DNA of 55,095 bases from a virus, in the IMG/VR virus record IMGVR_UViG_3300000116_000011, positions 1-55,095 of that record. One strand, 5' to 3'. Numbering within the stretch: the stretch's first letter is position 1; the number at the start of each line of letters is the position of its first letter. The notes beneath the pieces are model-generated. The model worked only from the letters and a program-made list of their open reading frames with translations. It was not told where the DNA came from and did no database searches. This document shows, piece after piece, positions 1 to 21,163 of the stretch. The position numbers and the translations under genes were made by a program.

Positions 1-2
1 TA

Positions 3-515
3 AGAAAAGACAACGGGCAAACTTTTGTTAATGCAATGGCAAGCGCAATCTTTAAAAAGTATTACAAGAAAGATGGTTCCCGCAAAACTCTTAAAAACAT
101 AGACACAAAACTTTTTCGCGTTCATGATAGTGGTGACTTGTTTAGTGTTGCATATATTAAAGCATGGAAACAAATTTGCCAAATCTTTCCTACAATTCGC
201 TTTTGGTTTCCTACTAGAGAATGGATTAGAGAAAGTCAATTGGAAGCGCTAAAAGATTTAGCTAGTTTATCCAACGTATCACTTAAACCAAGCGCATTAG
301 AGATTGATCAACCTGCGCCAAAAGTAGATGGATTAGATGCAGGAACTGCAGTTTATACTAGCAAGGAAAAAGCAGAACAAGATGGGCATTATGTTTGTCC
401 TGCAACCTATGTAAAAGGTAAAGACGGAAAAGTTTTAGCGCAATGCGCGGCTCATAACTGCAACCTATGCTTTATTAAAGGTTGCAAAAAACCTATAGCT
501 TACCTTGCCCACTAA
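3..515 (+). CDS. Gp88-family phage protein, 5' end cut by window edge
   Basis: The frame is open from base 3, so the gene probably begins outside the window; an internal ATG at 36 is possible but has no ribosome binding site. The protein has a histidine-aspartate-serine-glycine-aspartate stretch (RVHDSGDLFS) followed by an aromatic-rich region (IRFWFPTREW), then a C-terminal cysteine cluster of the form C-x15-C-x4-C-x2-C-x4-C. This pattern recalls the phage 'gene product 88' family, which I know only as a phage/plasmid family of uncharacterised function; the cysteines suggest a bound metal. The stop codon sits in the loop of a perfect hairpin. Confidence 0.6.
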   Translation, partial: RKDNGQTFVNAMASAIFKKYYKKDGSRKTLKNIDTKLFRVHDSGDLFSVAYIKAWKQICQIFPTIRFWFPTREWIRESQLEALKDLASLSNVSLKPSALEIDQPAPKVDGLDAGTAVYTSKEKAEQDGHYVCPATYVKGKDGKVLAQCAAHNCNLCFIKGCKKPIAYLAH

Positions 516-525
516 TGGGCAAGGT
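502..525 (+). terminator. Perfect hairpin with the stop codon in its loop
   Basis: ACCTTGCCC (502-510) pairs with GGGCAAGGT (517-525) around a 6-nt loop that contains the TAA stop (513-515) of the preceding gene. The following sequence is TTTAAAATAATTG rather than a clean T run, so it may work as a weak terminator or as an mRNA 3'-end stabiliser. Confidence 0.6.
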
Positions 526-584
526 TTAAAATAATTGTTTTAAATAAAAAGGTTTTTCTTTTAAATAAATAATAAATAATATAC

Positions 585-641
585 ATGGAATTAATTGTTT
601 TAATTGTTTTAGTTTTTTGGATAGGTAGTTGTTTACCTTAG
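585..641 (+). CDS. 18-residue hydrophobic micropeptide (family member 1)
   Basis: ATG to TAG encodes MELIVLIVLVFWIGSCLP. It is one hydrophobic helix ending in a short S-C-L-P tail and starting with the acidic residue Glu2. Length, Met-Glu-Leu start, single membrane-length helix and terminal Ser-x-x-Pro match two further 18-residue reading frames at 3329 and 5318. No Shine-Dalgarno is visible; upstream is an A/T-rich leader (AAATAAATAATAAATAATATAC). A terminator follows 24 bases later. Function unknown; insertion into the inner membrane is an inference. Confidence 0.45.
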   Translation: MELIVLIVLVFWIGSCLP

Positions 642-664
642 TTTATTGGTGATTGTGTTGTTAG

Positions 665-706
665 TCTCCTACCTGGGAAGTTTACCTGGGTAGGAGATTT
701 TTTTTT
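665..706 (+). terminator. Rho-independent terminator
   Basis: TCTCCTACC (665-673) pairs with GGTAGGAGA (689-697) across a 15-nt loop and is followed by nine T residues (698-706). It separates the Gp88 gene and micropeptide from the next promoter. Confidence 0.85.
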
Positions 707-714
707 AATTATTC

Positions 715-749
715 TTGACGTGGTTTTATTTGTGTGGTTTGTTGTTTGT
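715..749 (+). promoter_or_regulatory. Leaderless-type promoter P1
   Basis: TTGACG (715-720), 17 bp, TTTGTT (738-743), 6 bp, then ATG at 750. The same spacing occurs at 1456, 2460 and 2986, and P1 matches the 1456 promoter at most positions, including GTTTTATTT in the spacer and GTATGA at the start. If the hexamer is the -10 box, transcription starts at or next to the A of ATG. Confidence 0.6.
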
Positions 750-920
750 ATGACACAAGAACTTAAAGATTACATTAACGGATTAAACTTAAACTTCTTA
801 TTTTATTGCAACGGAGATTTTTGGTATGAAGATTGGCGCGGCAAGAAAATGTTTAGTTTAAAAGAATTAGAAAAAAACTTTGCACGAAACAAAGAAAGGA
901 GCATTCCTACGTCATCCTAA
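750..920 (+). CDS. Small hypothetical protein (56 aa)
   Basis: The frame can be extended to a GTG at 720, but that GTG lies inside the promoter, so ATG at 750 is the better start and gives MTQELKDYINGL... The protein is rich in aromatic residues in the middle (FLFYCNGDFWYEDW) and basic toward the end. I recognise no family. It is the first of five short genes packed almost end to end to 1424, with no Shine-Dalgarno of its own. Confidence 0.55.
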   Translation: MTQELKDYINGLNLNFLFYCNGDFWYEDWRGKKMFSLKELEKNFARNKERSIPTSS

Positions 921-939
921 AGTTGAGGAGCAGTATCTC

Positions 940-1017
940 ATGCATTACAGCGAGCGAGCAATCCACGAAGTACGTAGATGGGCAAAGCGCAATCTTGGAA
1001 TCGAAGTAAAATACTAA
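940..1017 (+). CDS. 25-residue basic peptide
   Basis: ATG 940 to TAA 1017 encodes a basic peptide starting MHYSERAIHEVRRWAKRN. A good ribosome binding site, GAGGAG (925-930), lies 9 nt upstream. Its stop shares one base with the next start (TAATG). Likely one amphipathic helix; function unknown. Confidence 0.45.
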   Translation: MHYSERAIHEVRRWAKRNLGIEVKY

Positions 1018-1121
1018 TGAAAGCGCTTGCAATTAGAAAGAAAGTATTTTTTATTAGTTCTATACCACACAAGAACAAAAAGAAAATAATTCCGAGAAAA
1101 GCTAAATACAAAAAGAAATGA
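1017..1121 (+). CDS. 34-residue basic peptide
   Basis: ATG 1017 to TGA 1121; very Lys/Arg-rich (MKALAIRKKVFFISS then a lysine-rich tail). Start overlaps the upstream TAA by one base and the stop overlaps the next ATG as ATGA, so translation is probably coupled. No family recognised; reality rests on the coupling pattern. Confidence 0.35.
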   Translation: MKALAIRKKVFFISSIPHKNKKKIIPRKAKYKKK

Positions 1122-1231
1122 AGATTGCCGAAATACTATATAAATATAAATTATATAATTTAGATATTACAAAACATTTAAATTTAATTAAAAAGAGTAA
1201 AGCTATAAATAAATTAAATAGAAGGAAATAA
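1118..1231 (+). CDS. 37-residue basic peptide
   Basis: ATG 1118 to TAA 1231; Lys/Ile/Leu-rich (MKIAEILYKYKLYNLDITKH then a basic tail). It overlaps its predecessor by ATGA and ends one base before the next start. It could be only a leader that couples translation of the 63-residue gene. Function unknown. Confidence 0.35.
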   Translation: MKIAEILYKYKLYNLDITKHLNLIKKSKAINKLNRRK

Positions 1232-1232
1232 T

Positions 1233-1424
1233 ATGACGGAAAGGGAAATGTTAAAAAAGGAATTAAATAGATTAGTTAAAGAAGAAGATTTTAATTCTCA
1301 GTATGCAGATGATATACTTTTATTATATGACGATGAAGTAGAAGACGGGCACAGCGACAACACAGCTTATGACAAAGCAATGCAAGACATCGACAATGTA
1401 AAAGCGGGAGAATGGGATTTATAA
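1233..1424 (+). CDS. Small acidic hypothetical protein (63 aa)
   Basis: Begins at ATG 1233 after a GAAGGAAA ribosome binding site that lies within the end of the preceding peptide gene. The protein is acidic and predicted helical (MTEREMLKKELNRLVKEEDF at the start, then an Asp-rich middle). No family recognised. Last gene of the packed series 750-1424. Confidence 0.6.
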   Translation: MTEREMLKKELNRLVKEEDFNSQYADDILLLYDDEVEDGHSDNTAYDKAMQDIDNVKAGEWDL

Positions 1425-1455
1425 TTTAATTAGAATAAAAAAAGTTAAAAAAAAT

Positions 1456-1490
1456 TTGACTTTGTTTTATTTATTTGATTTGTTAAGGGT
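1456..1490 (+). promoter_or_regulatory. Leaderless-type promoter P2
   Basis: TTGACT (1456-1461), 17 bp, TTTGTT (1479-1484), 6 bp, ATG at 1491. An A-tract (AAAAAAAGTTAAAAAAAA) precedes the first box, as in the promoters at 2460 and 2986, and could act as an UP element. Confidence 0.6.
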
Positions 1491-1658
1491 ATGAATAAAC
1501 AAGATAGAATACTTCAGGTAATGAAACGGGCAACTAAAAGGAAAAGCAAAAGTTCTTGGTTGATTGATCCTTTAATTGATTTGTTTGATATTGAGTTCAA
1601 AAAAAACTTAAAAAAAGATTTGCAATCCATATTGAAACGTGCGAATAGTATATTATGA
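1491..1658 (+). CDS. Small basic hypothetical protein (55 aa)
   Basis: ATG 1491 lies 6 bp after the promoter hexamer, so a leaderless mRNA is predicted. The protein is basic in its first 22 residues (MKRATKRKSKSS) and then amphipathic. It ends TGA 1656-1658, overlapping the next ATG at 1655 (ATGA). No family recognised. Confidence 0.55.
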   Translation: MNKQDRILQVMKRATKRKSKSSWLIDPLIDLFDIEFKKNLKKDLQSILKRANSIL

Positions 1659-1981
1659 ACGATACATTAAACATTCAAGTTGAGGAATTCGATGCAGAAG
1701 CATTTGAATTAAACGTTTTCTCTAATCATGAAGATTGCCTGTTCTTAAAGGGTTCAATTGAATTAGAAGAAGAAGAAGAACTTTGGGGGGATCAAGTGAG
1801 CAAGACTCACTTAGTCGCCAAGATTGATTCGATTGATTTAGTCGAGCAATACGATGAAGACGATGAACTTCGTCCGTATGTAGAACTAGAACTTGCAAGA
1901 TCAATCATGGAAAGAGTTCAAAAGCAAGATAAGGTACTCGATACAAAGTATCACTCAGTTAATTATAATGCTTGGTATTAA
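1655..1981 (+). CDS. Acidic hypothetical protein (108 aa)
   Basis: Starts in an ATGA overlap with the 55-residue gene and is presumably co-translated. Strongly acidic, with a run of glutamates near residues 37-42 (ELEEEEEL) and an Asp/Glu-rich segment near 66-71 (YDEDDE). Such acidic early phage proteins are sometimes DNA mimics or inhibitors, but nothing here proves that. No known motif. Confidence 0.65.
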   Translation: MNDTLNIQVEEFDAEAFELNVFSNHEDCLFLKGSIELEEEEELWGDQVSKTHLVAKIDSIDLVEQYDEDDELRPYVELELARSIMERVQKQDKVLDTKYHSVNYNAWY

Positions 1982-2034
1982 ACTATAACATCTAAAGAAG
2001 AAGAAAAAAAGATCTCAGTTTATCGCTTTCTGAT

Positions 2035-2063
2035 TTGACAAAAAAGCGAATATACTTTAAAAG
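2035..2063 (+). promoter_or_regulatory. Sigma70-like promoter
   Basis: TTGACA (2035-2040), 17 bp, TAAAAG (2058-2063). Unlike the leaderless set it is followed by a short leader containing the strong Shine-Dalgarno AAGGAGG at 2081-2087. Confidence 0.5.
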
Positions 2064-2095
2064 TAAATTATTTAAACAAAAAGGAGGAAATTAAA

Positions 2096-2230
2096 ATGTA
2101 TATATTAGAATCATGGTTTGTATTAAATAGTTTAATTTGTTTTTATCTAATTCATAAAGGATTAGAAGATGAATCAAAATATCAAATAGATTTGTTTGAA
2201 GATGTAAATAAACTAAATAGAACAAAATAA
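2096..2230 (+). CDS. Small membrane-type hypothetical protein (44 aa)
   Basis: ATG 2096 with a textbook ribosome binding site, AAGGAGG, 8 nt upstream; this is the strongest Shine-Dalgarno in the left part of the window. Residues 7-19 (WFVLNSLICFYLI) are hydrophobic and could form a single membrane helix; the remainder is charged. No family recognised. Confidence 0.6.
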   Translation: MYILESWFVLNSLICFYLIHKGLEDESKYQIDLFEDVNKLNRTK

Positions 2231-2281
2231 AAATAATTTAAATAAAATAATAAATAAACTAAATAAAATAAAAGGTTTAAA

Positions 2282-2440
2282 ATGAAGGAAAAACAATTAA
2301 AAGGAAAAGATTTAATTTCTTATCTGATGGTACGTTTCAATTATACTTTAAAGGAAGCGCTTGCAATCTGTATCGACAAAAGACAGATCTCAAAAGAGGA
2401 AGCCGAGGAAGTGGAAAGTTATTTCAATTTAAACAAGTAA
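2282..2440 (+). CDS. Small hypothetical protein (52 aa)
   Basis: ATG 2282 to TAA 2440. Predicted helical and charged (GKDLISYLMVRFNYTLKEAL in the first half, SKEEAEEVESYF in the second). The leader is A/T-rich with no clear Shine-Dalgarno. The stop runs into the A-tract of the next promoter. Function unknown. Confidence 0.55.
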   Translation: MKEKQLKGKDLISYLMVRFNYTLKEALAICIDKRQISKEEAEEVESYFNLNK

Positions 2441-2459
2441 AAAAAAAGTAAAAAAAAGT

Positions 2460-2494
2460 TTGCAATCGAATTCGACCTATGGGATAGTGTGGTT
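2460..2494 (+). promoter_or_regulatory. Leaderless-type promoter P3
   Basis: TTGCAA (2460-2465), 17 bp, GATAGT (2483-2488), 6 bp, ATG at 2495. The upstream A-tract interrupted by GT recurs at 2966-2985 before the matching P4 promoter. Confidence 0.6.
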
Positions 2495-2749
2495 ATGAGA
2501 AACAACACCACCACTTACCACGAGACACTTCACACCTTAGTTCAAGACGTACAGGCAAACTACTTGGATCTGAACGGCGCAACGAGTGAAGAGTTTGCAA
2601 ATCATTTTTGGCAACCCGTAGGGTACAACGAAACGGCGCACGTTTCTTTTAAGTTGGACACCTTAAGGGGAAAGAACACAAGACGCTATTTGCAAGTTGT
2701 GGTCTATCGATTTGAAACAGGACGTTACGAACTAGTTTGCTACTCCTAA
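2495..2749 (+). CDS. Hypothetical protein (84 aa)
   Basis: A GTG two codons upstream (2489) lies in the promoter gap, so ATG 2495 is preferred and gives MRNNTTTYHETLHTLVQ... The second half (HVSFKLDTLRGKNTRRYLQV) looks like a beta-rich fold. I do not recognise the family. The TAA stop forms the 3-nt loop of a 12-bp hairpin. Confidence 0.65.
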   Translation: MRNNTTTYHETLHTLVQDVQANYLDLNGATSEEFANHFWQPVGYNETAHVSFKLDTLRGKNTRRYLQVVVYRFETGRYELVCYS

Positions 2750-2761
2750 GGGGTAGCAAAC
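2735..2761 (+). terminator. Hairpin with the stop codon as its loop
   Basis: GTTTGCTACTCC (2735-2746) pairs with GGGGTAGCAAAC (2750-2761), one G-U pair, and the loop is exactly the TAA stop codon. Followed by GTTTAAAATAAAA, not by a clean T run. Same architecture as at 502-525. Confidence 0.6.
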
Positions 2762-2795
2762 GTTTAAAATAAAATAAAATAGGAGATAAAAGAAA

Positions 2796-2966
2796 ATGAC
2801 ACGTAAACACTTCACACTTGTAGCAAAAGAGTTAAACTTTTCACTGCGTAATGCGCCTAACAGCGCGCCGATCATTCGAGATCTTGCCACAGCGCTAGCA
2901 AACGAGTTCGAAAAAGTAAATCCAAACTTTAACAGGTCAAAATTTCTAGCAGTTGCGCTAGGATAA
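2796..2966 (+). CDS. Small phage/plasmid-type hypothetical protein (56 aa)
   Basis: ATG 2796 with AGGAG 10 nt upstream. The sequence (MTRKHFTLVAKELNF; then IRDLATALANEFEKVNP; ending NRSKFLAVALG) resembles a very common short phage protein with 'ala-asp-ala-leu-ala' helices and a terminal NP-F-R-F pattern; I recall this family but not a function. Helical, probably a small regulatory or binding protein. Confidence 0.6.
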   Translation: MTRKHFTLVAKELNFSLRNAPNSAPIIRDLATALANEFEKVNPNFNRSKFLAVALG

Positions 2967-2985
2967 AAAAAAGTAAAAAAAAGAT

Positions 2986-3020
2986 TTGCAATTTAAACAA
3001 AACAATGAGATCTTAATTTT
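2986..3020 (+). promoter_or_regulatory. Leaderless-type promoter P4
   Basis: TTGCAA (2986-2991), 17 bp, GATCTT (3009-3014), 6 bp, ATG at 3021. Box identity, spacing, A-tract and the ATGAG start match P3 at 2460. Confidence 0.6.
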
Positions 3021-3182
3021 ATGAGTAAGAACGTCGACCTCACACCAACTTGGGAATTCGCTGTAAAGATTTACATCGAAGTCCTTGAAAACGAAAAAGC
3101 CTCACATGAGGGAAAACAAGCCGCGCGGGAGGAGCTTCTCAAACTCGCGCAACTTGTAGACAGGCAAAGGAAGGAAGCCTAA
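3021..3182 (+). CDS. Small helical hypothetical protein (53 aa)
   Basis: ATG 3021 directly after P4. The sequence (LTPTWEFAVKIYIEVLENEK, then AAREELLKLAQLVD) matches a small phage/plasmid protein type with a W-x-x-A-x-x-I-Y-I core and a 'REELL-x-x-A-x-x-x-D' helix; function unknown to me. A strong terminator follows five bases after the stop. Confidence 0.65.
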   Translation: MSKNVDLTPTWEFAVKIYIEVLENEKASHEGKQAAREELLKLAQLVDRQRKEA

Positions 3183-3187
3183 TTTCA

Positions 3188-3214
3188 AAGCCCCCTAGAA
3201 ATAGGGGGCTTTTT
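3188..3214 (+). terminator. Rho-independent terminator (copy A)
   Basis: AAGCCCCCTA (3188-3197), GAAA loop, TAGGGGGCTT (3202-3211), then T residues. The 24-nt hairpin is identical to the one at 4050. Confidence 0.9.
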
Positions 3215-3328
3215 CAAACTCTTTCAAATAAAAAGCAAATAAAATAAAATAAATAAATAAATAGAAATAAATAGAATAAAAGAAAACAAACAAAGAAACA
3301 CAAAAGAAAACAAAAGAAACAAAACAAA

Positions 3329-3385
3329 ATGGAATTATTAGCACTTATCATAATGGGTATTATCTTATCTTATCAAATGCCTTGA
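3329..3385 (+). CDS. 18-residue hydrophobic micropeptide (family member 2)
   Basis: ATG to TGA encodes MELLALIIMGIILSYQMP. It shares length, hydrophobic core and the Ser-x-Gln-Met-Pro ending with the peptide at 5318, and the Met-Glu-Leu start with the one at 585. The leader (about 3225-3328) is A-rich and nearly T-free toward its end, with no clear Shine-Dalgarno. Between a terminator and a promoter, so transcription would need read-through or an unseen promoter. Confidence 0.4.
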   Translation: MELLALIIMGIILSYQMP

Positions 3386-3392
3386 ATTGCAT

Positions 3393-3422
3393 TGTGAATA
3401 ACTTTTTTAAAAATGTGAATAA
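3393..3422 (-). other. Pair of DnaA-box matches, possible origin
   Basis: TGTGAATAA occurs at 3393-3401 and 3414-3422; on the minus strand each is TTATTCACA, matching the DnaA box TTATNCACA. They have the same orientation, are 21 bp apart (two helical turns) and sit next to a long A/T-rich stretch (about 3228-3300). This could be a replication origin or a DnaA-controlled promoter, since a promoter begins at 3429. Confidence 0.4.
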
Positions 3423-3428
3423 CTAGGC

Positions 3429-3458
3429 TTGACTTTTACCGATATTTTTTTTTAGAAT
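3429..3458 (+). promoter_or_regulatory. Sigma70-like promoter
   Basis: TTGACT (3429-3434), 18 bp, TAGAAT (3453-3458). It drives the gene at 3503 with a leader of about 38 nt and an AAAGGAAAA ribosome binding site. The DnaA-box pair is immediately upstream. Confidence 0.6.
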
Positions 3459-3502
3459 GTAATCTCACAATTAAATTATTAATTCTAACAAAAGGAAAAC
3501 AA

Positions 3503-4033
3503 ATGAACCAACTAGTACAATCTAAGCCAAGTATTGAAGCACTTCGGGATTTCTTAATCAATTATAGGGGGCATTCTTTTGTGGGGCTTACCACATTGAC
3601 CAATGCAAAGGCTTACAAGCGCAACAATCCAATCGGTACAATCCTAAAGCTTGCAACATTGACCGCAAACATTGGCTTCCACTATAAGAATAGCTTGAAA
3701 AGCCAAGCCAAGCGCGAAGGTAAAGACATTGACTTCCAAGTACAGCCTAGAGTGTGGGGGGTAAGAATGCCCCATACTCCACTTGTAAAGCTTGTAAACA
3801 AGGAAACAGGGGAAGAAAAGCTTTACCTAGAATACAAAGGTGAAAAGGTTCATTCTGTGCAATACTTTACTGAAGAGGGGGAAGAATTGGCTTATGATGA
3901 TATTAAGCACTTATTGCCTAAGAAAAGTCATTCTTCCACACAAGCCCCACTTGAGAAGAAAATCATTCTTAGAGACGTTGCACTTGGCAACATTCTAAGG
4001 CTTACGATAGGGGGGAAGAATTTCCTTGGTTAG
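3503..4033 (+). CDS. Hypothetical protein (176 aa)
   Basis: ATG 3503 is preceded by AAAGGAAAA and a sigma70-like promoter, and is followed by a strong terminator, so this is a one-gene transcript. The protein is basic and soluble. The middle (QPRVWGVRMPHTPLVKL, then KLYLEYKGEKVHSVQYF) looks beta-rich, and the Lys/Ser-rich segment near 138-150 may be a linker. I do not recognise a family. Its own transcription unit next to a possible DnaA-box pair would fit a replication or regulatory role, which is inference only. Confidence 0.7.
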   Translation: MNQLVQSKPSIEALRDFLINYRGHSFVGLTTLTNAKAYKRNNPIGTILKLATLTANIGFHYKNSLKSQAKREGKDIDFQVQPRVWGVRMPHTPLVKLVNKETGEEKLYLEYKGEKVHSVQYFTEEGEELAYDDIKHLLPKKSHSSTQAPLEKKIILRDVALGNILRLTIGGKNFLG

Positions 4034-4049
4034 AGTTAGATTGTGATAC

Positions 4050-4077
4050 AAGCCCCCTAGAAATAGGGGGCTTTTTT
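4050..4077 (+). terminator. Rho-independent terminator (copy B)
   Basis: AAGCCCCCTA (4050-4059), GAAA loop, TAGGGGGCTT (4064-4073), T run to 4077. Same 24-nt hairpin as at 3188. Confidence 0.9.
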
Positions 4078-4080
4078 ATT

Positions 4081-4248
4081 GCAAGCAAATAGAGTAAAAA
4101 CAAATAGAATGAAAAGAAAACAAACTAAACAAAAGAAAACAAATGCTTTGCCTTGGCTTGGGCTTGGGCTTTGCCTTGGGCTTGGCTCGGCTTTGCCCTT
4201 GGCTTGGGCTTGGCTTGGCTTGCCTTGGTCTTGGGCTTGGGCTTGTTT
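4081..4248 (+). repeat. Strand-asymmetric low-complexity tract with no adenine in 4144-4248
   Basis: 4081-4143 is almost T-free and A-rich (GCAAGCAAATAGAG and onward). From 4144 to 4248 there are 105 bases with no A, built from degenerate TTGGGC/TTGGCT units, which contrasts sharply with the AT-rich surroundings. A 62-residue reading frame crosses it but gives a Leu/Gly/Trp/Ala low-complexity peptide and is unlikely to be a gene. Possible roles: structured or G-rich RNA, protein binding, or replication-related element. Between 4034 and 4403 I see only the terminator, this tract and a weak promoter. Confidence 0.6.
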
Positions 4249-4330
4249 AAGGTTGCTATTAGCTTAACTTATCAAGGTTATTAGCTGAAGAGGTATTTTA
4301 AACTAAACAAAAGAAAAGTTGCCTATGCAC

Positions 4331-4359
4331 TTGACTCAACTCAAGACTTACCCTACTTT
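4331..4359 (+). promoter_or_regulatory. Possible promoter for the DUF932 gene
   Basis: TTGACT (4331-4336), 17 bp, TACTTT (4354-4359; weak -10). It would give a leader of about 38 nt with AAAGGA before the ATG at 4404. Confidence 0.35.
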
Positions 4360-4403
4360 GAGGTTTCACAATTCAATGTTAATCTAAACTAAAGGATACT
4401 AAA

Positions 4404-5321
4404 ATGATCATGATACCTAACACCACAACCGCAATCGAAGCCCCCAAAAAGACTCTTGAGATGTACGACATTAGCGAATGCGCCAATGCCAATGAAGTCT
4501 TGGAAGTCATGAACGTAGGGCGGTACACCGAGACTCGCATCCCTCACATTTGTGACGGCTATAAAGTCATCAAGAATCACAACGGCTCGCCCTTATCTAT
4601 CGTAAAAAACACCTATGAAATGGTGCAACCTATCGAAGCCCTTGCCTACTTTGATACTCTTAGGGAACACATGGGATTCACTTACGACAAAGCGGGCTTT
4701 CTCAAAGGTGGGCGCCGTATGTACATAAATGCACGTCTTGATAACTTGGAAGTACCTCACAAGGATGTAAGAAAAGTGGGCGATGTACTAGAGAAAAGAA
4801 TCTCTTTTATGACTTCTTGGGATTATTCTTGCACAAGCAAGACCTTATTGGAATTGCTTCGCCAATGGTGTTCCAATGGGTGCGCTTCTTGGGTTCAAGA
4901 TTCTATCTTCAACGTGAAGCATACCAAGAATGCAGGCAACCGCATCAAGACCGCATTAAGGCAAGCTACGGGGCTTAAACAAGTCATTCAAGACTTAGAC
5001 AATGACATTGCCTTGCTTGCAAACACCGAAGCCAATGAAGAGCAATTTGATAAGGTTGCAAGACTTGTATTCCCTAGCGATACAACCGCATCAAGAAACA
5101 TCAGGGATTCACTCTCTAGCCAATTCACAAATGAAAGACTTGGCGCATTCGGGAACACCGCTTGGGATGTATTGAATGCTTTCACCGCTTATCAAACCCA
5201 TGAGAGAACGATACGTGAAACAAAAGGTTCGACACGTGAAGAGAATGCTTTCAATGCTCAAAGAGACTCTTCATTCGCTCGCCAAGTTAGAACCGCAATC
5301 GAAGAGGTGTTTGCGGTATGA
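4404..5321 (+). CDS. DUF932 phage/plasmid-like protein (305 aa)
   Basis: The GYKVIKNHNGSPLSIVKNTYEMVQ region near residues 52-75, the KAGFLKGGRRMYINARL segment near 96-112 and the C-terminal GNTAWDVLNAFTAYQTHERT (about 250-269) match the DUF932 family, common on phages and plasmids and of unknown biochemical role. Length is usual for the family. AAAGGA precedes the start; an alternative ATG lies two codons in. The TGA stop overlaps the ATG of an 18-residue peptide, and a terminator follows. Local G+C is higher than in the glycan cluster downstream. Confidence 0.85.
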   Translation: MIMIPNTTTAIEAPKKTLEMYDISECANANEVLEVMNVGRYTETRIPHICDGYKVIKNHNGSPLSIVKNTYEMVQPIEALAYFDTLREHMGFTYDKAGFLKGGRRMYINARLDNLEVPHKDVRKVGDVLEKRISFMTSWDYSCTSKTLLELLRQWCSNGCASWVQDSIFNVKHTKNAGNRIKTALRQATGLKQVIQDLDNDIALLANTEANEEQFDKVARLVFPSDTTASRNIRDSLSSQFTNERLGAFGNTAWDVLNAFTAYQTHERTIRETKGSTREENAFNAQRDSSFARQVRTAIEEVFAV

Positions 5322-5374
5322 TGCTCTTAATCTTAATCGGCATTGGCTTGTTAATGGCAAGTCAAATGCCCTAA
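5318..5374 (+). CDS. 18-residue hydrophobic micropeptide (family member 3)
   Basis: ATG 5318 overlaps the DUF932 stop (ATGA), and GAAGAGG just upstream can act as its ribosome binding site. It encodes MMLLILIGIGLLMASQMP. The Ser-Gln-Met-Pro ending and 18-residue length match the peptide at 3329 (Ser-Tyr-Gln-Met-Pro). Translational coupling to DUF932 makes this the best supported of the three. Confidence 0.5.
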   Translation: MMLLILIGIGLLMASQMP

Positions 5375-5378
5375 CCCT

Positions 5379-5406
5379 AAGCCCCCCAAGTGGGGGCTTT
5401 TTTTTT
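5379..5406 (+). terminator. Rho-independent terminator
   Basis: AAGCCCCC (5379-5386) pairs with GGGGGCTT (5392-5399) around a 5-nt loop, followed by a T run to 5406. It closes the left transcription block. Confidence 0.9.
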
Positions 5407-5658
5407 GCCTAGTACCCTACCCTATTTTCTAGAATTTTTGCACAATTCAATTTTTGAAAAACGTGCGCGGGGCCCTATTTTCAATATCAAAAATAAAAAA
5501 CACACTTTTCAACAAAGAAAGAAAAAGAAAAAGAAAAGAAAGAAAAAGAAAGAGCCTGTGGGGGCTTGTGCCCCCACCCCCCCCTATTAAAGAAAAAGAA
5601 AGAAAAACAAGAAGAAAACAAGAATTTGGAGATTCAAAAAAAATCAGAGGGATAAAAT
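5407..5658. repeat. Intergenic purine tract and hairpin, no gene
   Basis: No convincing gene in this stretch. About 5513-5554 and 5589-5625 consist of AAAG/AAAAAG repeats on the + strand. Between them a perfect 8-bp hairpin, GTGGGGGC (5558-5565) / GCCCCCAC (5570-5577) with a TTGT loop, is followed by a C run. On the minus strand the hairpin is followed by a T/C-rich tract and could act as a terminator. Reading frames here are Lys/Pro low complexity. Confidence 0.6.
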
Positions 5659-5692
5659 TTGAAACGCGCGATTTTTACCCTTATAATATATA
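5659..5692 (+). promoter_or_regulatory. Consensus sigma70-like promoter before rmlB
   Basis: TTGAAA (5659-5664), 17 bp, TATAAT (5682-5687), then 5 bp to GTG at 5693. The -10 box is a perfect consensus. The start codon lies at the predicted transcription start, so this mRNA is also predicted to be leaderless. Confidence 0.75.
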
Positions 5693-6625
5693 GTGAAAAA
5701 AATATTAATTACAGGTGGCCTAGGCTTTATAGGTAGTAATTTTATTAAGCATATATTTGATAAGTATGATTATAAAATATTCAATGTTGATGCTCTTACA
5801 TATGCTGCTAACCCTAAAAACATTAGTCATGAGATTGCAAAATCAGAAAGACATAATTTATTAATTTGTGACATAAATGATATACATGGTCTTCGCAGTT
5901 TAGTTCAAAATAATAACATTAATTATATCGTTAATTTTGCAGCTGAAAGTCATGTGGACAATAGCATAAATAATTCAAATCCTTTTATAGAAACCAACAT
6001 TAATGGAACACATTCGCTATTAAATTTACTTCATGACTGCCCAAGTATCGAAAAATACCTTCAAGTTTCTACCGATGAAGTATATGGCAGCTTAACTGAG
6101 GAAGATGCTCCTTTTACTGAAAACCACCCAATTCAGGCAAACAGTCCATATTCTGCAAGCAAAGCTAGTGCAGATTTATTGTGTCGTAGTTTTTATGAAA
6201 CTTTTAACTACCCAATTTTAATTACTCGCTGTTCAAACAATTACGGACCAAATCAAAATGAGGAAAAATTAATTCCACTAATGATTAAAAATGCTAAAGC
6301 AGGAAAAAAACTTCCTGTTTATGGTGACGGCAGAAATATTCGAGATTGGATTCATGTTTCCGATCATTGTTCAGCTATTGATGCAGTATTACATAAAGGA
6401 AAAACTGGAGAAGTTTATAATATTGGGGGAAAAAACGAAATTCGAAATATTGACATAGTAAAAACCATTTTAAAATTATTAGATAAAAGCGAAGATCAGA
6501 TAGAATTCGTGAAGGATCGGTTGGGTCATGATTGGCGTTATGCAATTGATAATAGTAAAATTCAAGACGAATTAAATTGGTTGCCTATTGAAAATTTCGA
6601 GAATGGACTAAAAGAATTGATATGA
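5693..6625 (+). CDS. rmlB: dTDP-glucose 4,6-dehydratase RmlB
   Basis: Converts dTDP-glucose to dTDP-4-keto-6-deoxyglucose, the branch-point for deoxysugars such as rhamnose. Short-chain dehydrogenase fold: NAD-binding TGGLGFIGS at residues 7-15, the RmlB signature STDEVYG at 126-132 with Thr-Asp-Glu catalytic residues, and YSASK (Tyr153, Lys157). It has 310 residues and ends at GLKELI, so the last ~20 residues usual in RmlB are missing; the stop overlaps the next gene (ATGA). Start is GTG, 5 bp after a consensus -10 box. No RmlA, RmlC or RmlD is in the window, so substrate must come from the host or from genes elsewhere. Confidence 0.92.
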   Translation: MKKILITGGLGFIGSNFIKHIFDKYDYKIFNVDALTYAANPKNISHEIAKSERHNLLICDINDIHGLRSLVQNNNINYIVNFAAESHVDNSINNSNPFIETNINGTHSLLNLLHDCPSIEKYLQVSTDEVYGSLTEEDAPFTENHPIQANSPYSASKASADLLCRSFYETFNYPILITRCSNNYGPNQNEEKLIPLMIKNAKAGKKLPVYGDGRNIRDWIHVSDHCSAIDAVLHKGKTGEVYNIGGKNEIRNIDIVKTILKLLDKSEDQIEFVKDRLGHDWRYAIDNSKIQDELNWLPIENFENGLKELI

Positions 6626-7314
6626 AATATGTAAACATGGGTCAGTCTTGCAGCATGTTGTCCCAGATGAAACAACATATGGGATACAACGATGGTTCTC
6701 ATATTTTTGATTGGATGATAACAGACTTTACAGGAGTGATACAGACTTTTAAGAAAAAGGAATTTAGTGTAAGTGATTTTACAACAGAAAGAGTGTTTTT
6801 TAATGAGTATACTCGATGGCCTCTTAGACTTAGAAAAAACCCAGTTTCTCCTCCCGAAAATAATGAGGACAGGGGCTGGGAGCAAAATAAGCTTTTAGTA
6901 GAATGTAATTCCTTTCCTTTTGTATCAGTACATTATATAGAAAAAAATAAAGATCGAGATGAGGAAATGAATAAATTTGTGGACATGATCAACAGAAGAC
7001 TTGAACGAATTAAAAAATATATTCTACATGAAAATGAAATAACTTTCATGTATTATGTAACCGATATGTTTTTAAGTCCATTCGCTCCAAACCAAAGTGA
7101 CATAGATTGCTTTGATGAAGTTTTGAGATCAATAAACCCACATGTTAACTATAAACTTGTGGTATTTATATCTGAACAAGATCTAGAACATTTAAAAATA
7201 AAACCTACTAAAGAATATCGTATATTAAAAAAGATTGATAATTCTGCCATGAGATCTGATTGGAGGGACGGCCATTTAGACTGGGGTTATTTTTTGAAAA
7301 ATGGTAAACCATAA
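6622..7314 (+). CDS. DUF1796-like (putative papain-like cysteine peptidase) protein
   Basis: The N-terminus MGQSCSMLSQMKQHMGYNDG followed by HIFDWMI matches the pattern G-x-x-C-x(n)-L-x(n)-FDW of the DUF1796 family, annotated as putative papain-like cysteine peptidase and often found in glycan clusters; real activity is not established. The Cys in GQSC is the candidate nucleophile, and HLDW near the end could supply a His. Starts inside the RmlB stop (ATGA) and overlaps the following sulfotransferase gene by 14 nt, so the three form one operon. Confidence 0.5.
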   Translation: MKYVNMGQSCSMLSQMKQHMGYNDGSHIFDWMITDFTGVIQTFKKKEFSVSDFTTERVFFNEYTRWPLRLRKNPVSPPENNEDRGWEQNKLLVECNSFPFVSVHYIEKNKDRDEEMNKFVDMINRRLERIKKYILHENEITFMYYVTDMFLSPFAPNQSDIDCFDEVLRSINPHVNYKLVVFISEQDLEHLKIKPTKEYRILKKIDNSAMRSDWRDGHLDWGYFLKNGKP

Positions 7315-7906
7315 AAAAAAATTTATTTTTGTTCATATACCAAAATGCGGAGGAAGTTCGATAGAAACATTTCTTGGATTTAATTTATGGTCAAAATTAA
7401 TAATTGAGGAGGATCGTGAAGATATTTTTATAGGGCGAGATTCAAAAACAGGAAAATGTTTACAACACTCTACTATATCTGAAATTTATTATAAATTTTA
7501 TATTCGTAAAAAAATTAATATAAGTAATTACTTTTCATTCTCATTCGTAAGGAACCCATATGACAAATGTATATCTAGTTATTTTTATACAAATCAATAT
7601 CAAAAAAAATCTTTTAAAGAATTCCTTTTAAAATATGAACACCACGACTCTTATCACAATATGAATCAATGTGATTTCGTCACCGACAAAAATGGTAAAA
7701 TTGCAGTAGATTTCATAGGAAGGTTTGAAAATCTTCAAGAAGATTTTGATCATGTATGTAAAAAAATAGGAGTTAAAACAGGGCAAATTCCCCATCAAAA
7801 CAAATCTCTCCACAATAACTACAGAGAGTATTATAATGAAGAAACGAAAGCTATTGTAGAAAAAAAATTTAAAAAAGATTTAGATTTATTTGAATACAAA
7901 TTCTAA
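7301..7906 (+). CDS. Sulfotransferase (PAPS-dependent, family 2-like)
   Basis: Transfers sulfate from PAPS to a carbohydrate acceptor in characterised relatives. The 5'-phosphosulfate loop is HIPKCGGSS at residues 12-20; the 3'-phosphate motif is FVRNPYDKCISSYFY around RNP 84-86. DFIGRFENLQEDF (near 148) and the ending YREYYNEETKAIVEKKF...DLDLFEYKF match the shared C-terminal pattern of the other sulfotransferases here. Its TAA directly abuts the TAA of the minus-strand gene, with no base between. Confidence 0.88.
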   Translation: MVNHKKKFIFVHIPKCGGSSIETFLGFNLWSKLIIEEDREDIFIGRDSKTGKCLQHSTISEIYYKFYIRKKINISNYFSFSFVRNPYDKCISSYFYTNQYQKKSFKEFLLKYEHHDSYHNMNQCDFVTDKNGKIAVDFIGRFENLQEDFDHVCKKIGVKTGQIPHQNKSLHNNYREYYNEETKAIVEKKFKKDLDLFEYKF

Positions 7907-10423: not shown

Positions 10424-11157
10424 AATTTATTCTCCAAATTTGTACCCAAAATTCTCAATGTCTCGTGGTTTCGTCGTCGTAGTATTCGGTGTAGTGTTTG
10501 TGATATAATTCCACCAATATATTCTGATGCAATATCTTCACCTTTTCTGGTATAATGTTCCCGATTTTTAGTAGTTTGTAGATTGGGCATTATGGAGGGG
10601 TCAATCAAGAAAACATTTTTGTACTCTGTGGAAATTTTCTTTAAATAATCCCAAATTACTTCCCTGTAAGGTTTGCTTTTTCGATCAAAGTGGCTAACAA
10701 AAAATATTGGCTTTTCACTATACTCTACAAAATTCTTTGTTGTTACCTCAAATTCTTCAGATGACATATCTTTAATTATGGAAGAATTCTTATTATTGTG
10801 CATTATGTTGTGAATCAATTTATTATCTTTGTTTTTATAATACCTAAGTGAAGAAACCTCCACGACAATAGCATCAATTTGATTAAACTTTCGCCCTAAA
10901 AAAAGTAAGTTATCTTTAATATTTTCAATATCTGGATACTCACAGCCAGCATATTCAGCAAACGGCTTATCACCTTTGATTAATTTTAGCAGTTCTAATT
11001 GCTCGTTGATACTCCAACTTCTACCAATTATGCATTTTGGGTTTAAATGTCTACTCCCTGTCTCCCCCCATGTGTTGTATGTATTTTGATAATTATTTAA
11101 AGCAGCGCAAATTCGACAGCTACCCATAGCTAGTAAATTATATTTACTGTTGTTCAT
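10420..11157 (-). CDS. SGNH-hydrolase-like protein with an aberrant C-terminal tail
   Basis: LLAMGSCRICAAL near residues 8-20 resembles the GxS nucleophile block of SGNH/GSCFA-type proteins, and HYTRKGEDIASEY (about 201-213) resembles the D-x-x-H block with its C-terminal helix. Deacetylase or acyltransferase roles on glycans are typical of such proteins; here it is inference. The final ~25 residues (HETLRILGTNLENKL end) are not native: they are translated, in the wrong frame, from a decayed sulfotransferase 3' end. Confidence 0.45.
   Translation of the reverse strand: MNNSKYNLLAMGSCRICAALNNYQNTYNTWGETGSRHLNPKCIIGRSWSINEQLELLKLIKGDKPFAEYAGCEYPDIENIKDNLLFLGRKFNQIDAIVVEVSSLRYYKNKDNKLIHNIMHNNKNSSIIKDMSSEEFEVTTKNFVEYSEKPIFFVSHFDRKSKPYREVIWDYLKKISTEYKNVFLIDPSIMPNLQTTKNREHYTRKGEDIASEYIGGIISQTLHRILRRRNHETLRILGTNLENKL
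10427..10502 (-). pseudogene. Remnant of a sulfotransferase 3' end
   Basis: On the minus strand these bases encode, in a different frame from the overlapping gene, HYTEYYDDET and then, after a shift, RDIENFGYKFGE. That is the C-terminus of the sulfotransferases at 9878 and 11161. Compared with the 11161 copy, 26 bases are missing between two CTCG repeats, which shifts the frame. A 33-nt block is identical to the 11161 copy, so the event looks recent. Confidence 0.75.
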
Positions 11158-15694: not shown

Positions 15695-16381
15695 TTAGGT
15701 ATTAATTAATTCATATATTGTCTCCATAGTCTCAGGGAGAACGTAGTGTGTTGTGATTTTATTTTTTTTAATTATTTCATCAATGCAGACTGATTGATTT
15801 TCTTTTACTACAGCAGGGGGAGGCCCCCAGCTTAGGGAAAATGTGGGTGTTAAATTTATTTCTTGCTCTTTTAAGGCGAGACCAACATAATAATCTTCCG
15901 CAGCCTGTTTTATGCCATATATTCCTTCAATTTTAGATCTATTTCTATAAAAATGTTTCAATGACTCAATACACTTTTTAACTGCACTTCTTGTCAAAAC
16001 ATATCCCGCTCCACCTTGAGCATACCCTTTTTGTCCTAGCTGCTTCCCTATGTACAAATCTTGAGATGGATCATAAGTTTTTAAAAATTCAATTAATCTA
16101 TCAAAGCAAACATAGGTATCGTCGTCGCATTTAAACAAAAAATCCCATTCATAATCTAATGATTTTACTAGCATTTTATATGTTTTTTCTGTTAATCCAT
16201 TCCTGCATTCCCCTTTATCTGGTTCACAATTCCATGTTTTAGGCATTTTCTCTGATTGAGTTTTGTTTCCGTAAAAAAAATAATCATGTGGTGATTTTAT
16301 GTCTTTAATCCATGTCGCAAGACAAGCATCGGCCCGTGTTTGAGTTGATGAGCAGGTTAATATTGCTACAAGTATTTTCAT
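15695..16381 (-). CDS. GT31-like galactosyltransferase (fringe/beta-1,3 type)
   Basis: FLFKCDDDTYVCFDRLIEFL (residues 81-100) is the GT31 DDD metal site with the typical 'K-x-DDD-x-Y-V' context. YAQGGAGYVLTRSAV (120-134) and AAEDYYVGLAL (160-170) are the other two diagnostic blocks (G-G-A-G-x-x-L-S and E-D-V). In plants GT31 enzymes galactosylate hydroxyproline; in animals they extend O-glycans. It sits beside a prolyl 4-hydroxylase gene, which makes hydroxyproline a plausible acceptor. Confidence 0.85.
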   Translation of the reverse strand: MKILVAILTCSSTQTRADACLATWIKDIKSPHDYFFYGNKTQSEKMPKTWNCEPDKGECRNGLTEKTYKMLVKSLDYEWDFLFKCDDDTYVCFDRLIEFLKTYDPSQDLYIGKQLGQKGYAQGGAGYVLTRSAVKKCIESLKHFYRNRSKIEGIYGIKQAAEDYYVGLALKEQEINLTPTFSLSWGPPPAVVKENQSVCIDEIIKKNKITTHYVLPETMETIYELINT

Positions 16382-16420: not shown

Positions 16421-17506
16421 TTACTCACTATCTCTGGGAGTAGAAATAGTTCTTGGACCGTAAGCATTAATAACTTCTCGGTCTTCGCTAGCTTCCCTAA
16501 TCCATATAGTTAATATATATTTTAATCCTTTTTTTATCGTTGTTCCTTCATGATGACTAGACTCTAATGGGAATCCATTTTCATCTATATTTTTCCAGAA
16601 AACTGCCGTGCCAATTTTTGGTTTAATTTTTAAAATTTTACCTTTTTCGTCTTTCACATTCCAGAATTTAGTAGACCCTCCCTTTTTAGGTTCATTTAAA
16701 TACACCATAAAAGAATATACCCTATTACCTCCTTCTTCTGGAGAAGCAAATTCTTGACCTCCACGCTCTCTAGTATCCCAGCCATCAAAATGACAATAAA
16801 AGTAATCACCTTTAGAGTATTTTTGCATTTGAATGCCTTCGCACCTATCTGGATGAACGCCTAACGCAAGACATGCTTTGTTCTCTATAGACATTAGAAA
16901 AAGCATCTCATCTTTACTGAAATTTAAATTAGGCTGTCTTGTTATGAATGCAGTTTCGGACCTTCGATCATCTTCATCAATAACATTACCCTCTCCATAA
17001 GCAGTTACTGGAGATGGTTCTAAATGACGCTCTCCTAAAGTTATCGCATCTTTGCATTGAGCTTCCGTCATAAAATTATCAATCATAAAAATATCAAGAG
17101 CATCATCTTGAACTTGAATCTTCTTAGCAAATCTAGTAAAAAAAGGATAACCTTTAATGCCATTTAAATTTCCTGGATCTCTATACAAATTTTCTTTTTT
17201 AGATTTTTTAGATTTTTTCATTTTATTTTTAGAATTAGAATTTACAGAGTTATCTTTAGTTTCCACTTTTGAGGCTGGATTTTCTTCGGGTTTTTGTTTT
17301 TTAGAATCAGGTAATCTTTTGTGAGCTTCTCGAATGATCTCAACACACTCCTGTTGAGTCAAATCAAAACTTTTTAAAGTTTGAAGAACATATGAGGAAG
17401 GAGCTTTCGTCTCTATATTTTCTACGGTCCAATCAATCAAGTCGCATTTTTTCCAGTTAGCGCAGCCCTGCGGAGGGCATCCATTTTTAGAGCATTTATT
17501 TTCCAT
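16421..17506 (-). CDS. Prolyl 4-hydroxylase-like 2OG-Fe(II) dioxygenase
   Basis: The C-terminal ~240 residues form a P4H catalytic domain: HFD (His239, Asp241) in QKYSKGDYFYCHFDGWD, distal His319 in HEGTTIKKGLKY, and Lys329 for 2-oxoglutarate, with the exact P4H spacing H-x-G-x(5)-G-x-K. FMVYLNEPKKGGSTKFW is the usual strand. The N-terminus has four cysteines (5, 10, 15, 21) in C-x4-C-x4-C-x5-C, then a Lys/Asn/Ser-rich linker around 70-105. Target may be a proline-containing phage or host protein. Confidence 0.88.
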   Translation of the reverse strand: MENKCSKNGCPPQGCANWKKCDLIDWTVENIETKAPSSYVLQTLKSFDLTQQECVEIIREAHKRLPDSKKQKPEENPASKVETKDNSVNSNSKNKMKKSKKSKKENLYRDPGNLNGIKGYPFFTRFAKKIQVQDDALDIFMIDNFMTEAQCKDAITLGERHLEPSPVTAYGEGNVIDEDDRRSETAFITRQPNLNFSKDEMLFLMSIENKACLALGVHPDRCEGIQMQKYSKGDYFYCHFDGWDTRERGGQEFASPEEGGNRVYSFMVYLNEPKKGGSTKFWNVKDEKGKILKIKPKIGTAVFWKNIDENGFPLESSHHEGTTIKKGLKYILTIWIREASEDREVINAYGPRTISTPRDSE

Positions 17507-18703: not shown

Positions 18704-21163
18704 TTAATATATTATTTCGTTGTAAAATTTTGTATTCCATTTTATATTTGCAGTAATAGCTCTGGAAAATTTTTGTTCAAGTTTACTTAATTTAGGGTTG
18801 CTATTTAAATTGCTTTTTTTGAAAATTTTAGGCGGAACTTCTAGACCATAACATTCAAAAAGAATTTGTCCGAGAGCTTCTTTCGCAAAGGATAGATCCC
18901 TGACATATATATTTTCTTCTATAAAAAAATCTACAACATCTTTCACATATTCTATATTATTTTTAATGCCAGATAAACTTTCATCATACAATGCCCTTAA
19001 GGGCCAAGCATCTTTTAACTTTTCTATTTGATTACCTGAAGAATAAAGTAATGAACTCATTTGAGCTCTTGGGTCTCTCAGGAAACTAAAGGGGGATAGC
19101 ATAACCCCAGAATCGTTGGCAATTTTTTTAACAAATTCATATGAAATTTTTGGGTATCCGCTTAGAGACGTACTTGCTGCAAAAATTAGAAACGATGAAT
19201 GATCAAAATATCTTAAAAAAGTTTTTTCTGAGCATTGAGCGAAGAAAGGGTTTTTTTTAGATCCTGAAACATCTGGATCGGAAAAGAAATTTTCTTCATA
19301 TACATAGCAATAAAATATAGCTATTGAGTTTTTATCTAAATTAACGTTAATTCTCCTGTAGGCTCTATTTGAAAGTTCTGGAGAATCATTAACGAAACTT
19401 TCAAAATAATAAGTAAATACACTATTAACAAAAGAGCCTCCACACTTAGGTTGGTGAATAAAAAATGGAACTTTTTCTTCTGCTATGTTTTTAACTAAGA
19501 TTTTATTATAAATCTCTAAATCTTGTTTGTATTTATTTTCAATTTGGATCTCTATGTCCTTATCCACTGACCCTTGGTAAAAGTTAATTTTATTAACTGT
19601 ATGATTGATGGGGATTGATTTCAATTCAACTCTGCCAGCATCTATCTTTTTATTTTTCTGAAAAATAGATTTTAAAACAGTTTCAATCAATCTAACATCA
19701 TAAAAAGAAAAATTCCATAAAATAGAATATAAAAAATCTAACTCCTTTGCATTCAACGATTCTTTCCCGATTAAATTTTTAGATAAAAAACCTTTGGGAG
19801 AATAGTTAACCAAGAAGTCGTGAAATTTTAATTTGAATTCTGGACTTCTTACAGAAATTCTATTAGCATTGGCATATGGAATGTAAAGAGAACTTGCAAT
19901 ATCCAAAGGGTTTTTAAGAAAGGAAAAAATAGAAGGGCTTAATTTTAATGAATAACATATCTGATGAAATTCCATAAAAAAGAGGTAATCATAGTCAGTT
20001 GAATATCTTTGATCTAATACTATAGAAAAAGGTTCAAGAAAATCTGACTCCGAAATTTTTTGGAAATCTTCCTGTGCAATACTATAAAAATTACCAACTT
20101 TAGATTGGAACATTTTTCTATCAAAAGGCTCGGGATTTTCCAGAGAGGATAGCAAATAAAAACGAGAATTTTTTTCAGTGGCAAAGCTTATTATGAACGG
20201 AAATCTTCCAGTTTTATTGCAGTGATTAATTAAATACTTTTCTTGAGCTTTTATGCAAAATTCTGAGCCAGATTTAGGCATTGCATAAAAAACCATAATT
20301 TCTTTAAAATTCTTGTTTTTATTGAAAAAATTTAAATTTAACTGTCTATATGGGCTCACTTCTTTTTGGTGAATAATCATGGCATTAGGATATGCCTTTA
20401 TCACACTTTTGGTAGTTATGAATTTATCTCTTGGGTCGCTTATATTTATAATAAAATCAGTATCAATAAGACTGTATTCTGATTTTTCTTTATTGTAATC
20501 ATTGATAGCTATGTCAAAATTATAGTAGCCTGTATCTGGCATATTTTTTTTGATGAATCTTTCAACATTCTTAGACAATTTTTTCATTTTCGGGCTGTTT
20601 TTATAAACGGCCACTCCATTTAGATGTTCTTTATAAAAAGAAAGGTAATGACTTTCGGTCATGCCCTTATATCTACTGCCAGCTATATCAAAATCGTGAG
20701 ATTCGGAAAAACTTAAAATCCTATCAAACCACAAATGCTGACAAGGAAAAGTATCAGACTCTAACATTAAATTATATTCATATCCCTCCTTAAACATTAA
20801 ATCGAGAGATCTAAAAAATAAATTATTGGCCCCAGCAGTATAGCCTAGTTTAGGCATTGAAAAAGGCTTTGGACTGCTAAGCCATGGATACCAAAAAGTA
20901 TCTTCTTCAAATGTTAAATTTAAATCTACTATTTTAACATCATTTATATTTATATGTTTTTTTATTGATTGGTGAAATTTTTCTATCCTCGTTGAAAGCA
21001 CTAATTTATTAAAATATATATATAAATCTATGGAGTAAGTTTGAGAAGGAAAACTGTTTAAATAATGGTATATTGATTGTTCTAATTCTCCGCTTGTAAA
21101 CTCTCTGATTGTTGCAACATAAAAAACACAAAGTTTTTCACATCTTTTTAATTTATTAATCAT
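18704..21163 (-). CDS. Three-domain fusion: glycosyltransferase + two sulfotransferases
   Basis: 819 residues. Residues 1-275 look like a GT-A glycosyltransferase (NLMLESDTFP at 131-140, FDIAGSRYKG at 158-167). Residues ~286-555 form a first sulfotransferase: 5'-loop YAMPKSGSEF (293-302) and 3'-site FLKNPLDIASSLY (415-427), ending ENKYKQDLEIYN. Residues ~560-819 form a second: IHQPKCGGSF (569-578) and FLRDPRAQMSSLL (694-706), ending LEQKFSRAITANI. Both sulfotransferase domains keep their motifs. First gene of the minus-strand operon, next to a divergent promoter. Confidence 0.75.
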   Translation of the reverse strand: MINKLKRCEKLCVFYVATIREFTSGELEQSIYHYLNSFPSQTYSIDLYIYFNKLVLSTRIEKFHQSIKKHININDVKIVDLNLTFEEDTFWYPWLSSPKPFSMPKLGYTAGANNLFFRSLDLMFKEGYEYNLMLESDTFPCQHLWFDRILSFSESHDFDIAGSRYKGMTESHYLSFYKEHLNGVAVYKNSPKMKKLSKNVERFIKKNMPDTGYYNFDIAINDYNKEKSEYSLIDTDFIINISDPRDKFITTKSVIKAYPNAMIIHQKEVSPYRQLNLNFFNKNKNFKEIMVFYAMPKSGSEFCIKAQEKYLINHCNKTGRFPFIISFATEKNSRFYLLSSLENPEPFDRKMFQSKVGNFYSIAQEDFQKISESDFLEPFSIVLDQRYSTDYDYLFFMEFHQICYSLKLSPSIFSFLKNPLDIASSLYIPYANANRISVRSPEFKLKFHDFLVNYSPKGFLSKNLIGKESLNAKELDFLYSILWNFSFYDVRLIETVLKSIFQKNKKIDAGRVELKSIPINHTVNKINFYQGSVDKDIEIQIENKYKQDLEIYNKILVKNIAEEKVPFFIHQPKCGGSFVNSVFTYYFESFVNDSPELSNRAYRRINVNLDKNSIAIFYCYVYEENFFSDPDVSGSKKNPFFAQCSEKTFLRYFDHSSFLIFAASTSLSGYPKISYEFVKKIANDSGVMLSPFSFLRDPRAQMSSLLYSSGNQIEKLKDAWPLRALYDESLSGIKNNIEYVKDVVDFFIEENIYVRDLSFAKEALGQILFECYGLEVPPKIFKKSNLNSNPKLSKLEQKFSRAITANIKWNTKFYNEIIY

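Follow-up and report, generated by a model that had tools for sequence, protein, structure and literature searches.

The Ibs peptides of Escherichia coli are type I toxins that occur in several copies per genome and have about 18–19 amino acids, one hydrophobic segment and almost no charge. They are the closest described counterparts of the phage micropeptides reported here, three of which are encoded in the window (bases 1–55095 of the 80,288-base virus record IMGVR_UViG_3300000116_000011) and which measure 17–19 amino acids in all 24 aligned copies. Unlike Ibs, the micropeptides are coupled to phage genes and show a small-xxx-small pattern and a final proline; no antisense RNA is known for them. 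TnaC represents another type of short product, an arrest or leader peptide that ends in a proline followed by the stop codon. Proline likewise precedes the stop in most micropeptide copies; however, those at the DUF932 site do not precede a regulated gene in the manner of a leader, and neither the end residues nor the stop codon are fixed (TAA, TAG and TGA are all present; proline occupies alignment column 18 in 21/24 copies).

IbsC, a peptide of 19 amino acids, can be shortened to 15, of which 10 are hydrophobic (PMC8309996), and a C-terminal proline can slow termination (PMC7246954). Small phage proteins acting on host processes have also been reviewed. The examples considered from that review are, like the micropeptides, small products of accessory regions, but they comprise 51–79 amino acids and are mostly soluble regulators, in contrast to the hydrophobic peptides of 17–19 amino acids described here (PMC11323111). 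No description of the family was found in the literature searched, which did not include the large phage small-protein catalogues cited in PMC11323111 and does not prove its absence. Small hydrophobic peptides in general are an already known kind of gene product.

A multicopy family of 17–19-codon genes

The comparison set consisted of ten contigs (G numbers), several of which are incomplete, so that micropeptide copy numbers are lower bounds. A total of 26 copies were tabulated, and 24 of them match one pattern. They are located at DUF932 genes (10 copies), after Gp88-family genes (six), before a gene encoding 176 amino acids (five), after a gene encoding 129 amino acids (two) and at other places (three). 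Left out of the 24-copy alignment, and of the comparison of peptide tails, were G048 858–917 and G051 4922–4987, two hydrophobic open reading frames (ORFs) which have charged ends and lengths of 19 and 21 codons, respectively, and are perhaps outlying family members.

The DUF932 site provides an unbiased test because the relatives were picked solely by terminase and DUF932 homology. The terminase search gave 80 loci in viral contigs, seven of them at 78–100% identity, and a DUF932 search of 47 terminase-bearing contigs gave matches in five. All five carry an 18-codon hydrophobic ORF which overlaps the DUF932 stop by ATGA and is followed by a terminator. A scan with the single DUF932 sequence returned no relative; only the alignment-based scan did so, recovering 37 loci. 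Eleven DUF932 relatives have at least 37% identity, and a coupled ORF of 17 or 18 codons was present in 9/9 of those at or above 45% and in 0/2 of those at 37–38%. It was also absent from the more distant DUF932 loci (0/26), from the DUF932 paralogs of G002, G048 and G051 (0/3), and from the cultured phages examined (0/8, out of 34 records with a DUF932 of 22–31% identity). In one of these eight, a crAssphage, short hydrophobic frames occur in the vicinity but are unrelated.

When the DUF932 end was searched for as a degenerate DNA pattern, the same nine contigs and no others were retrieved, and a pattern for the LLLP-type copy retrieved just three, all already known. The family looks restricted to one clade of uncultured phages because the pattern was absent from five contigs of more distant phages of the same terminase family, in the parts available. 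Among 7718 small ORFs of 112 distant terminase-family loci the best profile match had an E value of 0.12. Other hydrophobic ORFs, of 19–23 codons and with charged or polar ends, were observed in the distant contigs G055 (7295–7366, 10795–10857, 16299–16364) and G059 (18829–18888).

Substitutions and a comparison with shuffled DNA both speak for protein-coding genes. In the two close pairs, nine out of ten base changes are synonymous against an expected fraction of 0.27 (p 7e-5), with 5/5 in the G002/G003 ORF and 4/5 in G050/G051. Intergenic DNA of the ten contigs contains 29 hydrophobic frames (ATG start, 17–19 residues, hydropathy >1.3, at most one charge) as compared with a mean of 4.2 and a maximum of 10 in 200 dinucleotide-preserving shuffles. 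With proline required at the last or next-to-last position the numbers are 21 and 0.24 (maximum 3), a contrast that is partly post hoc because this criterion was set after the peptides of the same contigs had been viewed. We are nearly certain that the frames constitute a real multicopy gene family. The original prediction that the three frames of the window form one family of genuine micropeptides is thus borne out by the conserved frame, start, length class and C-terminal pattern and by the mostly synonymous changes in close pairs; a check it had proposed, conservation of frame and start after DUF932 and Gp88 genes in related phages along with synonymous bias, gave a positive result.

The genes at whose ends the copies sit are unrelated to one another. 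Many copies overlap the preceding gene by ATGA, an arrangement that implies translation by termination-reinitiation and offers a simple rule for locating other hidden genes. Those at the DUF932 site always stand immediately before the terminator, whose hairpin starts 4–14 nucleotides past the stop. The comparison shows that genes of 17–19 codons, which are far below the limits of gene finders, can make up a phage family that has several copies per genome and keeps its positions.

Conserved features of the peptides

Column 3 of the 24-copy alignment is leucine or isoleucine and column 14 serine, threonine, alanine or glycine, without exception in either case. Column 16 holds glutamine (12 copies), leucine (six), threonine (five) or cysteine (one). 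Glycine or alanine is found at column 10 in 17 of the 23 distinct rows that remain after exclusion of the G003 duplicate, and this preference exceeds that of the other core columns (permutation p 5e-5). Columns 10 and 14 are thus in small-xxx-small spacing, an arrangement that helps membrane helices to pack together. Core hydropathy ranges from 2.6 to 3.4, and the peptides are nearly uncharged. The second residue of ATGA-coupled copies is isoleucine or methionine because codon 2 must begin with A, and several free copies have glutamate at this position. The tails of peptides from one genome are more alike than those from different genomes (permutation p 0.006); this test was not corrected for kinship and is taken only as a hint.

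Exchange at the DUF932 site

In G005, G006, G049 and G050 both flanks of the DUF932 site are alike and the ORF is not. (Zero and very low values in the pairwise tables of flank and ORF identity are artefacts of gap settings and were ignored.) Between G050 and G005, identity amounts to 96% for the DUF932 amino acid sequence, 97% for the 150 nucleotides upstream and 93% for the 60 nucleotides downstream, while the ORF itself shows 56% identity at the nucleotide and 17% at the amino acid level. Identity dips to a trough of 0.54 at the ORF, against a median of 0.96 over 273 segments of 54 nucleotides, and lower values are confined to the far end of the aligned stretch. The opposite holds for G050 and G051, whose DUF932 proteins are 65% identical, yet whose ORFs agree in 91% of nucleotides and 94% of amino acids; here, the ORF is the highest of 114 segments (median 0.67). 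Drift in place cannot yield both this peak and the G050/G005 trough, and we conclude that the ORF was replaced together with part of the hairpin. These data show that the micro-gene at the DUF932 site is swapped as a unit between otherwise conserved flanks. Since the flanks are nearly identical, such a swap suggests that one very small peptide has been the object of recombination and perhaps of selection.

Possible mode of action

A helix that keeps its form and yet is swapped whole at one site suggests that the peptides act on something in the bacterial membrane. The reading we favour, tentatively and with not quite even confidence, is that each peptide acts as a single helix within the inner membrane of the host by packing with a variable partner. 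According to this model the product would insert as a short helix, and its small-xxx-small face would pack against itself and/or against a partner in the membrane that belongs to the host or to a competing phage. Whole alleles would be exchanged in line with differences in this partner, and the outcome would likely be that host membrane functions are modulated or other phages are excluded during infection. An action on the host membrane or on a membrane enzyme, as named in the original prediction, is no more than consistent with a hydrophobic, nearly uncharged peptide with small-xxx-small spacing. A more far-reaching version, which we think unlikely, sees the 18-codon genes as allele cassettes in a system of type-specific membrane interactions. 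Each phage would carry several peptides of matching type that are exchanged whole as the target in host or rival changes; if true, few exchanged specificity determinants of viruses would be smaller. Should a function be confirmed, the natural alleles at one fixed place would permit direct tests of peptide recognition.

Several observations weigh against the packing model. Less close copies differ by many non-synonymous changes (G005/G006, four synonymous and 19 not; the G050/G051 copy before the 176-amino acid gene, two and 10). No identity trough was seen at the other two sites, so that exchange is clear at the DUF932 site only, and the exchange need not mean selection because the accessory region is mosaic in general. 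With about 13 hydrophobic residues the core would make a short membrane span, and in G006 tail types are mixed among its three copies.

Alternative explanations differ widely in how well they account for the data. Short hydrophobic frames are common in AT-rich DNA, and many are found on both strands of the window; nonetheless, the probability that the family consists of chance frames is practically negligible given the place kept in 9/9 close relatives, the synonymous bias and the excess over shuffled DNA. Chance is thereby refuted for the family, copy 1 of the window taken alone resting mainly on its position. It is hardly more plausible that the ORF is no separate gene and extends DUF932 as a tail through frameshifting at the ATGA. 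It does overlap the DUF932 stop in a different frame in 10/10 cases at this site, but at Gp88, at the 129-amino acid gene and at copy 2 of the window there are copies that have an ATG of their own and are free of any overlapping gene. Very doubtful, too, is a role as a secreted peptide signal or its precursor with the C-terminal tail as the message; tail types tend to agree within a genome, but the N-terminus is uncharged, unlike usual export signals, and neither a receptor gene nor a lysogeny gene was identified close to the copies.

A nascent peptide acting in cis deserves somewhat more credit, although we consider it improbable. Ribosomes slowing at the proline-stop would then influence the nearby terminator or the stability of the mRNA, or would hold the polysome at the membrane, and the free peptide would have no role. 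Proline is the last residue in most copies and a terminator-like hairpin adjoins 12 of the 26; however, the model leaves uncovered the 14 copies that have no hairpin, all three stop codons are used, and five of the 26 copies lack proline at both of the last two places. An Ibs-like peptide of low sequence specificity that makes the inner membrane permeable or depolarises it, and in this way shuts down the host or blocks DNA entry of other phages, is the most serious competitor, even if we judge it rather unlikely. The IbsC size class, the near absence of charge and the presence of several copies per genome fit such a function, which would also allow the sequence to vary freely while hydrophobicity is kept. 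Membership in the Ibs family itself was rejected because PF13956 matched none of the ten contigs at E values up to 10, whereas the E. coli control scored over the cut-off. No Rfam family reached its gathering score in the window, a search which an undescribed antisense RNA would escape. Helix packing with a partner is preferred over plain depolarisation because the conserved columns 10, 14 and 18 and the synonymous bias exceed what bare hydrophobicity demands.

The three copies of the window and their surroundings

As originally predicted, the window contains three frames of exactly 18 residues from ATG to stop (Table 1). They match the family pattern, with glycine, serine or alanine at column 14 and the ends LP, MP and MP. 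A serine-to-proline end had been described with one or two residues between the two; the end itself is present, but the spacing is two to three residues (SCLP, SYQMP, SQMP). The predicted ATGA overlap with the DUF932 stop and the ribosome-binding sequence were confirmed for copy 3 (ATGA at 5318–5321; GAGGT upstream within the DUF932 end), the only copy with such a sequence, and its terminator-like hairpin begins 4 nucleotides past the stop. At copy 1 the corresponding distance is 23 nucleotides. Copy 2, which has neither a ribosome-binding sequence nor a terminator of its own, has a hairpin and T run near 3186–3215 on one side and the 176-amino acid gene on the other.

Table 1. Micropeptide genes of the window and neighbouring features
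Feature	Position	Strand	Remarks
Micropeptide copy 1, MELIVLIVLVFWIGSCLP	585..641	+	After Gp88; same place in G002, G006, G048, G050, G051
Micropeptide copy 2, MELLALIIMGIILSYQMP	3329..3385	+	A-rich leader upstream of 176-amino acid gene; same place in G006, G048, G050, G051
Micropeptide copy 3, MMLLILIGIGLLMASQMP	5318..5374	+	ATGA-coupled to DUF932; same site in 9/9 close relatives
DUF932 gene	4404..5321	+	PF06067, E 4.5e-29; stop overlaps start of copy 3
Gp88-family gene	3..515	+	PF17338, E 5e-17; cut by record start
176-amino acid gene, downstream of copy 2	3503..4033	+	No Pfam or PHROG match; homologs in G002–G004, G006, G048–G051
Terminator-like hairpin and T run after copy 1	665..705	+	
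Terminator-like hairpin and T run after copy 3	5379..5407	+	
52-amino acid ORF	2282..2440	+	Relatives in G006, G050, G051 ATGA-coupled to micropeptide upstream of 176-amino acid gene

A profile trained solely on DUF932-site peptides of other contigs was run on the 1143 small ORFs of the window's record. Copy 3 ranked first (E 6.8e-6) and copy 2 second (E 2.7e-4). Copy 1 was not recognised, ranking fourth with an E value of 4.9, and its support is positional, a similar peptide following Gp88 in five other contigs. Positions 1–5700 of the window had no DNA match among cultured phages of the phage collection. The predicted DUF932 structure is of low confidence (mean predicted local distance difference test score 58.7) and was not used for functional considerations.

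The relatives of the 52-amino acid ORF that are coupled to the micropeptide gene in G006, G050 and G051 have 38–39 codons. Behind the same A-rich leader as that of copy 2 lies a low-complexity ORF of 35 amino acids, rich in leucine and glycine (4143–4250), which is perhaps a repeat-expanded micropeptide relative. A second hydrophobic ORF of 24–25 codons directly follows the Gp88-site copy in G006 and G050 and is also found in G051 (16871–16945). On the reverse strand downstream of DUF932, G005 and G006 share a similar ORF of 45–48 amino acids with hydrophobic stretches. Past the DUF932 terminator, loci L085 (G006) and L086 (G005) have tandem repeats with different units at the same place.

No host is claimed because the terminase relatives L204–L207 (60–67% identity) lie in four contigs of metagenome-assembled genomes from different groups, labelled Halobacteriovorax, Flavobacteriaceae, Verrucomicrobiales and unnamed bacterium. 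Beside the terminase gene of the window is a sulfotransferase-like gene (28851–29465; PHROG 3347, E 3.3e-19). A layout resembling leaderless promoters, with TTGAC or TTGCAA, was observed in the window (715–752, 1456–1493, 2459–2496, 2986–3023) and in related contigs. These motifs start exactly 35 nucleotides before ATG in 68 cases among 1626 ORFs from 12 contigs, as against mostly 1–11 cases for any other distance, and in 118 cases among 3034 ORFs of 112 other, partly redundant loci. With this spacing, transcription would begin at the ATG or directly beside it.

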